Assembly (NCBI RefSeq): GCF_003258605.2
Contig: NZ_CP031264.1
Location: 1,984,001 to 2,048,000 of the forward strand
From: Peterkaempfera bronchialis
GTDB lineage: Bacteria; Actinomycetota; Actinomycetes; Streptomycetales; Streptomycetaceae
Direction: 5' to 3'
Length of the DNA stretch: 64,000 nucleotides
Every line of letters begins with the position of its first letter. The stretch's first letter is position 1. This document shows positions 15,200 through 19,715 of the stretch, piece after piece. A program made the translations under genes and the position numbers. Under the pieces are notes generated by a model. The model saw only the letters and a program-made list of their open reading frames with translations. It was not told the DNA's origin and searched no databases.

Positions 15200-18091
<2,892 letters not shown>

Positions 18092-18146
18092 CGTCCTCAG
18101 GACTCCATCGGTGTCAGATAGCGAACCGTCATGTCAGCCGGAAATG

Positions 18147-18169
18147 AAAAAACCCCTCGCATGAGGGGT
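18147..18169 (-). terminator. Attenuator terminator in the leuS leader
   Basis: On the minus strand a 7-bp stem ACCCCTC / GAGGGGT is followed at once by six Ts. This is a classical intrinsic terminator, rare in this GC-rich genome. It lies 47 bases after the leader peptide stop and about 55 bases before the leuS start, so it would end the transcript before the gene. Confidence 0.85.
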
Positions 18170-18171
18170 CG

Positions 18172-18206
18172 CCGCGCCGACTCCGGCCTGTCCGCCAGGC
18201 GTCGGC
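18172..18206 (-). promoter_or_regulatory. Leader hairpin upstream of the attenuator
   Basis: On the minus strand, GCCGAC...GTCGGC encloses a second stem GCCTG/CAGGC. It lies between the leader peptide and the terminator, where a pause or competing hairpin would be expected. In addition GCGAACCGT at the leader start is exactly complementary to ACGGTTCGC just after the terminator. Boundaries are approximate. Confidence 0.5.
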
Positions 18207-18215
18207 CGGTGCTGG

Positions 18216-18254
18216 TCAGCGCGGCCGGCTAAGGAGCAGGCGCACGGTTCGCAT
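18216..18254 (-). CDS. Leucine leader peptide of leuS
   Basis: A 12-residue peptide MRTVRLLLSRPR starts at ATG 18254 and stops with TGA. It contains three consecutive Leu codons CTG-CTC-CTT; the last is uncommon in this genome. A ribosome stalling there for lack of charged tRNA-Leu would change folding of the following leader and relieve the terminator. There is no clear ribosome binding site; TACCCT seven bases upstream could be a -10 box giving a nearly leaderless transcript. It lies just after the stop codon of the regulator gene, so its promoter is inside that gene. Confidence 0.75.
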   Translation of the reverse strand: MRTVRLLLSRPR

Positions 18255-18258
18255 GGGG

Positions 18259-19611
18259 TCAGGGTACCGCAGGGGCGCCACCGCCCGCGCGGCCCTCGGC
18301 CGGGGCGGCCCGCCGCTCCGTGCGCGGAGCGCGCAGGGCGGCGTCGAACTCCTTCAGCGCCGTCGCCACCCGGATCGACAGCATGCCCGCCGCCAGCCCG
18401 CGTGCCCGGTCCGCCGCCTGCTCGGCCGCCTCGGGCCGCCCGTCGAGCAGGCAGCACTCGGCCAGCCGCACCAGGGCGAGCGCCCTGGCCCGGGCCTGCT
18501 CCGGCGCGATCCCCGCCACGGCCGCCTCCAGATGGCGCCGGGCGCGCTGCCGCACGCCGAGGAAGAGGAAGCACTCCCCCAGCATCCGGTGCAGGTCCGC
18601 CCGCTCCTGCGGATCGCCCTCCGGCCCGATCTCGGCGAGCGCCCGGTCGGCCGCCGCCTCTGCGGCGGGCCGCTCCCCGAGCCGGCCGAGGGCGCGGGCC
18701 ATCCTGCCGTACTGCAACGCCCGCTCGGCGGCGGTGTGCGCGCTGCCGGCGGCCTCCAGCGCCATACCGACCAGGGTCACCGCCTCCCGTTCCAGGTTCG
18801 GCAGGAAGGTCGCCTGCGCGGCCAGGCAGCCGATCACCGAGGCGCCCATCCGGACGTCCCCGGAGACATGGGCGGCGCGCAGCGCGGCGACAAAGCAGCG
18901 CTGGGCGGTGACCTCGTCGCAGGCGTCGGCGGCGGCCCAGCCGGCCAGCCGGGCGAGCCGGGCCGCCACCCCGTACAGCTCGCGGCCGGTCGCCTCGTCG
19001 TACGCGCCCAGCTCCAGCAGCTTGACCAGCACGCCGAGCTCGCGGCGGGCGGACTCCAGCACCAGCCCGCCGCCGAAGGACAGCTCCAGCCGGTGCTTGC
19101 TGTCGGAGGTGCCGCGCAACTCCGCCACATGGGACGGACCCACCGGCAGCGGCCCGGTGCCGACCGGCGGCGGGGAGTCGCTGCCGGCCCAGTGCCGCGC
19201 GACCAGGCGGAGTCCGTCGGGGCGGAAGAGGTCGGCCGGGCGCTGCAACCGCACGGGGGCGCCGGCGGTGGCGTCGGCGAGGGCGGCGCGGGCGAACTCC
19301 GGCGTCCAGTCGTCGGTGAGCAGCCGCGCGGAGAGGGTCCTGGCGCCCCGGCCGGGTCCCATGGCGGCCCACAGCTGCTGGTAGGTGACGGCGATGCCGA
19401 GCGCCCGGCTGAGCACCTCGCAGACGACCTGGTCGTACGGCGGCCGGGGGACCCGGCCCCGGTCGCGCCAGTGGTAGGGCGTGGTCCGGTTGATCGCCGC
19501 CTGGTCGCCGACGACCGCGTTGACCTCGGCCGCGAGCCGCTCCGGCCCCCAGTCGAGGTGGGACAGGATGCGCACCAGCTCGTCGTTCTGCCGGGGTGAC
19601 AGGTCCGCCAT
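18259..19611 (-). CDS. TPR-containing regulatory protein with N-terminal DNA-binding-like segment
   Basis: A 450-residue soluble protein starts at ATG 19611 (MADLSPRQNDELVRIL). Residues 1-85 (LAAEVNAVVGDQAAINRTTPYHWRDRGRVP) resemble a helix-turn-helix or plasmid-type DNA-binding segment. The rest is a solenoid of Ala/Leu-rich helix pairs typical of tetratricopeptide repeats (for example ALQYGRMARALGRLGERPAAEAAADRAL). The architecture resembles streptomycete developmental regulators of the NsdA type. Orthology is not proven. It is divergent from the cytochrome b operon and could control it through the shared intergenic region. Confidence 0.7.
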   Translation of the reverse strand: MADLSPRQNDELVRILSHLDWGPERLAAEVNAVVGDQAAINRTTPYHWRDRGRVPRPPYDQVVCEVLSRALGIAVTYQQLWAAMGPGRGARTLSARLLTDDWTPEFARAALADATAGAPVRLQRPADLFRPDGLRLVARHWAGSDSPPPVGTGPLPVGPSHVAELRGTSDSKHRLELSFGGGLVLESARRELGVLVKLLELGAYDEATGRELYGVAARLARLAGWAAADACDEVTAQRCFVAALRAAHVSGDVRMGASVIGCLAAQATFLPNLEREAVTLVGMALEAAGSAHTAAERALQYGRMARALGRLGERPAAEAAADRALAEIGPEGDPQERADLHRMLGECFLFLGVRQRARRHLEAAVAGIAPEQARARALALVRLAECCLLDGRPEAAEQAADRARGLAAGMLSIRVATALKEFDAALRAPRTERRAAPAEGRAGGGAPAVP

Positions 19612-19715
19612 GCCCGGAACGGTAACGCGCGGTCCAGCGCGCGGCGCAGGGGGGCCGCCGAGCGGGCCGGGGCACGGGGTCGGCGGGGTTTTCCCGGGCC
19701 TTTCGGATATGCCAT

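Follow-up and report, generated by a model that had tools for sequence, protein, structure and literature searches.

Could a hairpin that forms only when a ribosome stalls disable a terminator simply by lying against it? This question is raised by the minus strand of a 64,000-nucleotide stretch of Peterkaempfera bronchialis DNA (NZ_CP031264.1, positions 1,984,001 to 2,048,000; hereafter the window), where the gene for a leucyl-tRNA synthetase of 963 amino acids, leuS (15200-18091, ATG at 18091; TIGR00396 leuS_bact, E = 2.3e-264), is preceded by a short leader ORF, a hairpin termed H3 and an intrinsic terminator. The leader ORF, leuL, has the sequence ATGCGAACCGTGCGCCTGCTCCTTAGCCGGCCGCGCTGA (18254-18216, minus) and encodes the peptide MRTVRLLLSRPR-stop in 12 codons. 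A first-pass annotation of the window had described a minus-strand 12-codon leader with the codons CTG-CTC-CTT, followed by a hairpin and a terminator with six Ts within 165 bases of leuS, and this arrangement is confirmed, with a start-to-start distance of 163 nt from the leader ORF to the leuS ATG. Judged from sequence and comparison, the region is likely to be a leucine-responsive attenuator of leuS transcription that works through the ribosome and is orthologous to the one described in Streptomyces.

The putative -10 hexamer of the leader promoter, TACCCT (18261-18266, minus), is located 6 nt 5' of the leader ATG. Among 121 leuS upstream regions from Streptomycetaceae-type loci (one of which, L014, is from Plantactinospora), 118 have a TANNNT motif ending precisely 6 nt 5' of that ATG, as compared with about 1% expected by chance. 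Since this spacing is so regular, a leaderless transcript is predicted, with the AUG of the leader ORF as its probable 5' end. Such a start has been measured in S. lividans only, where LeuL2 is transcribed leaderless (PMC8079986), and the spacing of the -10 box fits it here. The upstream gene (18259-19617, minus) encodes an NsdA-family TPR-like regulator (NF053720, E = 8e-64), and its stop codon, which the -10 box overlaps, is separated from the leader ATG by 4 nt; the leader promoter is thus placed inside the 3' end of this gene. At the other end of the leader region, just before leuS, there is a conserved ATGGAG...GAGGA (18092-18110, minus), which is also seen in leuS loci of Streptomyces and Kitasatospora and is interpretable as a very small ORF (MES-stop here, MEL-stop in many Streptomyces) with a stop that overlaps the Shine-Dalgarno sequence.

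The three consecutive leucine codons of the leader, CTG-CTC-CTT (18231-18239, minus), would be the regulatory codons. The last of them is CTT in 120 of the 121 family loci (counted in 118 of 119 regular LLL leaders, and read by eye in two irregular ones) and in 29 of 32 loci outside Streptomycetaceae, whereas leuS of the window uses CTT for none of its 75 leucines. Nearly all of the 121 leaders follow the peptide pattern MR[AT][VA]xLLLSxPR, and the leader, H3 and the terminator are present together in all of them (121/121). The measures of the three-helix structure were equalled by 0 of 500 shuffles, the pairs of H3 are kept at 97% with compensatory changes indicating covariation, and the leader of the window scores 112.6 bits with a covariance model of the leuS element.

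H3 (18171-18225, minus) consists of 11 bp formed between GCCGCGCUGAC (18225-18215), which contains the leader stop codon, and GUCGGCGCGGC (18181-18171), and this intervening hairpin is the strongly conserved part of the element. Its loop can harbor an optional inner hairpin, CCGGCC/GGCCGG (18183-18209, minus), which is missing from the short forms of other genera. The terminator stem-loop (18151-18170, minus), GACCCCUC-AUGC-GAGGGGUU in the RNA, directly abuts H3 with no gap; in the DNA it reads GACCCCTC-ATGC-GAGGGGTT and then T (18170-18147), and the first two residues of the six-T tract (18147-18152, minus) pair in the stem too. T-tract terminators had been said to be almost absent elsewhere in the window, and indeed this is the sole site in the 64 kb where at least 6 perfect bp of stem are followed by at least 5 T. 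A chance hairpin next to a T-run can be ruled out, as Markov shuffles give an expectation of 0.0 such sites. A simple hairpin scan of the window likewise returned this terminator as the longest stem, and the full leader RNA folds at -80.3 kcal/mol (z = -4.1 relative to shuffles). A T-box or another Rfam element was excluded, because a search of the leader against the Rfam families, including the T-box, gave zero matches even at E = 1. In the alignment of the element, the terminator sequence CCCCTC[C/A]TG...GAGGGG is near-invariant across families, beyond what a terminator needs, and the CCUCCU within it resembles the anti-Shine-Dalgarno core.

The anatomy of the region was measured over 165 leuS loci. 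The distance from the end of the leucine run to H3 is 5 nt in 143 of them, and the gap between H3 and the terminator is 0-2 nt in 157 (0 nt in 95, 1 nt in 9 and 2 nt in 53), while the loop of H3 varies from 4 to 47 nt. With fixed gaps on either side and a variable loop, the position of H3 between the leucine run and the terminator is fixed, and its interior is free.

A covariance model, R1, built from 33 diverse loci, matched in 138 of 297 Actinomycetes genomes and in 65 of 115 genera; the 138 is not a pure leuS count, because a minority of the matches are ilvB- or leuA-type leaders. Sixty matches were fetched and their downstream gene checked, and among these leuS lies downstream in 22 GTDB families besides Streptomycetaceae. 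The comparison of leuS upstream regions for a leucine-rich peptide and a terminator, as the first-pass annotation had suggested, therefore bears out the element in 121 of 121 family loci and in these 22 further families. The minority of fetched matches without leuS were mostly ilvB-type leaders (such as MFYGLLIIGRRAG-stop) and leaders of the leuA LEU-element type, both named by their peptides. Second R1 matches in other genomes were considered as extra leuS copies, but those that were read are again ilvB- or leuA-type leaders, and nothing leader-like was found at the second match in this genome (L193, E = 2.8). By name, leuS of Plantactinospora, Actinoplanes, Knoellia and Ornithinimicrobium has the element, and the tested leuS loci of Corynebacterium, Dietzia and Mycobacterium gave no match to the leuS element model. 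Matches otherwise come from Actinomycetes, with the exception of a high-scoring leuS leader (72 bits) on VBGT01000006.1, which is labelled as a Chloroflexi MAG and is probably a misbinned actinobacterial contig or the result of a transfer. The element also precedes two divergent kinds of LeuS, with about 39% and about 67% identity to LeuS of the window (compared sets: L226, L230, L237, L242, L243 and L252 against L224, L225, L232 and L233); the proteins with about 39% identity match TIGR00396 without interruption, and one type of synthetase may have replaced the other behind a retained leader.

The leader, the promoter spacing, the rare codon, H3 and the terminator, all present in the DNA and each conserved, suggest the following course of events, in which we infer the stalling, the direction of the response and the way in which H3 would reduce termination. 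Transcription would begin on the first base of the leader ATG, and the leaderless mRNA would then be loaded with a ribosome. With ample charged tRNA-Leu, the ribosome would reach the UGA and cover the 5' arm of H3, so that the terminator could fold and transcription would stop before leuS. When charged tRNA-Leu is scarce, the ribosome would stall on CTG-CTC-CTT, H3 could form, and the polymerase would read through into leuS. Counted from the first nucleotide of its A-site codon, a ribosome covers about 12 nt further downstream. By that footprint, a stall on the leucine codons leaves 6-11 of the 11 H3 pairs free, whereas a ribosome at the stop codon covers the entire 5' arm. Since the exposure of H3 varies with the position of the ribosome, H3 could serve as a gauge of how much charged tRNA-Leu is available and, on this reasoning, should mark the read-through state. 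The terminator could instead act constitutively, the leader merely setting a basal read-through or feeding ribosomes to leuS without a response to leucine, and the ability of H3 and the terminator to form in one fold would agree with that. However, a rare leucine codon is kept 5 nt before H3 across the class, and the downstream gene charges exactly leucine, which makes this explanation quite improbable.

In a classical attenuator of the E. coli trp/thr/his type, an antiterminator overlaps the terminator and excludes it. Such a structure, hidden in the leader and forming upon ribosome stalling, could operate here as in E. coli thr and his or in Corynebacterium ilvB-II, where the loop of P1 would pair with the right shoulder of P2; an antiterminator has indeed been labelled for leuS (PMC1262725), and the loop-to-P2 pairing was proposed for ilvB-II (PMC10272879). 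By contrast, duplex energies compared with shuffles over 148 loci gave neither terminator arm any excess complementarity to the H3 loop, the leader or the H3 5' arm (mean z = -0.04 to +1.07), and the only significant pairing of the leader in the same test is H3 itself (mean z = -4.8). When terminator pairs were forbidden in folding, both terminator arms remained unpaired in the loci folded, and folding of truncated transcripts in which H3 was free gave a mean probability of 0.07 for upstream pairing of the terminator 5' arm, in a test whose positive controls were clear for E. coli thr and his and weak for trp and leu. These three approaches found no overlapping antiterminator involving the leader, the H3 loop or the H3 arm, and a hidden one is unlikely. 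The leuS leader thus seems to lack the overlapping antiterminator of the classical type, within the limited sensitivity of the test, and since no alternative partner of the terminator arms was found and H3 and the terminator are thermodynamically able to coexist, the standard switch logic is missing. A textbook antiterminator seems to be absent from the leuS leader, as far as folding and pairing statistics can tell. The first-pass annotation had called the region a textbook layout of ribosome-mediated attenuation; leucine attenuation of leuS is retained from that reading, and the textbook part is not, as no competitor for the terminator arms was found.

The same annotation had pointed to a long-range pairing as a possible alternative fold. 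GCGAACCGT at the leader start (18252-18244) is exactly complementary to ACGGTTCGC (18129-18121, minus), with 9 of 9 positions matching here and 8 or 9 of 9 in Kitasatospora and the sister species, and the pairing lies within the minimum-energy fold of the full leader. The match itself therefore holds. As a switch, however, it is hardly credible: ACGGTTCGC is located 3' of the terminator and its T-run and is transcribed only after the decision on termination, so that the pairing cannot determine it and any action would be limited to the read-through mRNA. Furthermore, the pairing is largely confined to Peterkaempfera and Kitasatospora, with no such match in Streptomyces or in most other genera, and it was rejected as an antiterminator.

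For the attenuator reading, action by adjacency is proposed instead, because H3 does not overlap with the bases of the terminator: abutting H3 might crowd the terminator hairpin so that it could not enter the RNA exit channel. The opposite effect is conceivable, in that stacking of H3 could strengthen the terminator, in which case the direction of control would be unexpected. A counterpoint to the attenuator reading comes from the related ilvB and leuA leaders of S. coelicolor, for which the results of codon replacement disagreed with classical attenuation (PMC1262725). The abutting arrangement extends beyond leuS, as a hairpin abuts the terminator with a gap of 0-1 nt in 17 ilvB-type leaders too. 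The ilvB leader of this genome (MRTRILVLGERVG-stop; L288, G000:C1:4763052-4763187, outside the window) has an abutting hairpin and terminator alike, with H3 formed by AGCGCGUCGGC/GCCGACGCGCU and then ACCCCUCG...GAGGGGT6. It is tentatively conceivable, though rather doubtful, that leuS and ilvB leaders share, throughout the Actinomycetes, an attenuator design without an antiterminator, in which a stall-dependent hairpin 0-2 nt from the terminator would disable it by adjacency and not by base-pair competition. If adjacency alone disables a terminator, many actinobacterial leaders that are read as classical attenuators would need another mechanism.

The attenuators of E. coli thr, trp and his likewise place an intrinsic terminator behind a leader peptide that contains regulatory codons, but they have an antiterminator overlapping with the terminator (the folding test detected it for thr and his), and none was detected in the leuS leader. 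The actinobacterial ilvB(NC) leaders, including Corynebacterium ilvB-II (PMC10272879), resemble leuS in having branched-chain codons, a hairpin (P1) at the uORF and then the terminator (P2), and differ in that they sense Ile, Leu and Val, precede a different gene and, in the ilvB-II study, are proposed to use a P1-loop antiterminator. The LEU element 5' of leuA (Seliverstov et al., 2005) has a similar leader start, an LLLLS run and a GC-rich hairpin, and is weakly matched by the leuS model; however, it lacks a terminator and was proposed to act at the Shine-Dalgarno region of leuA. Closest are the leuS leaders of Streptomyces. Seliverstov et al. (2005, PMC1262725) predicted classical attenuators for leuS of S. 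coelicolor and S. avermitilis, and a 2021 RNA-seq study of S. lividans TK24 reported LeuL2, MRAVRLLLSEPR, as a leaderless ORF that precedes leuS and is followed by a hairpin and a run of uridines (PMC8079986). A comparative study by Lopatovskaya et al. (2010), as cited in PMC4833913 and PMC10272879, concerns the attenuation of amino acid and aminoacyl-tRNA operons, and the published distribution of the element may be wider than two Streptomyces species and S. lividans. The Streptomyces attenuator was described as classical with an antiterminator, whereas none that overlaps the terminator was found here and many families carry the element; the class-wide spread and the failure to find the assumed antiterminator are among the additions of the present analysis and merit further attention. 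Otherwise the correspondence is close: the gene is the same, a hairpin is followed by a terminator with a U-tract, and MRTVRLLLSRPR and MRAVRLLLSEPR differ at 2 of 12 residues. With consecutive leucine codons directly 5' of leuS, a terminator and U-tract in between, and orthology of both peptide and hairpin, the leuS element of P. bronchialis is an ortholog of the already known Streptomyces leuS (leuL) attenuator.
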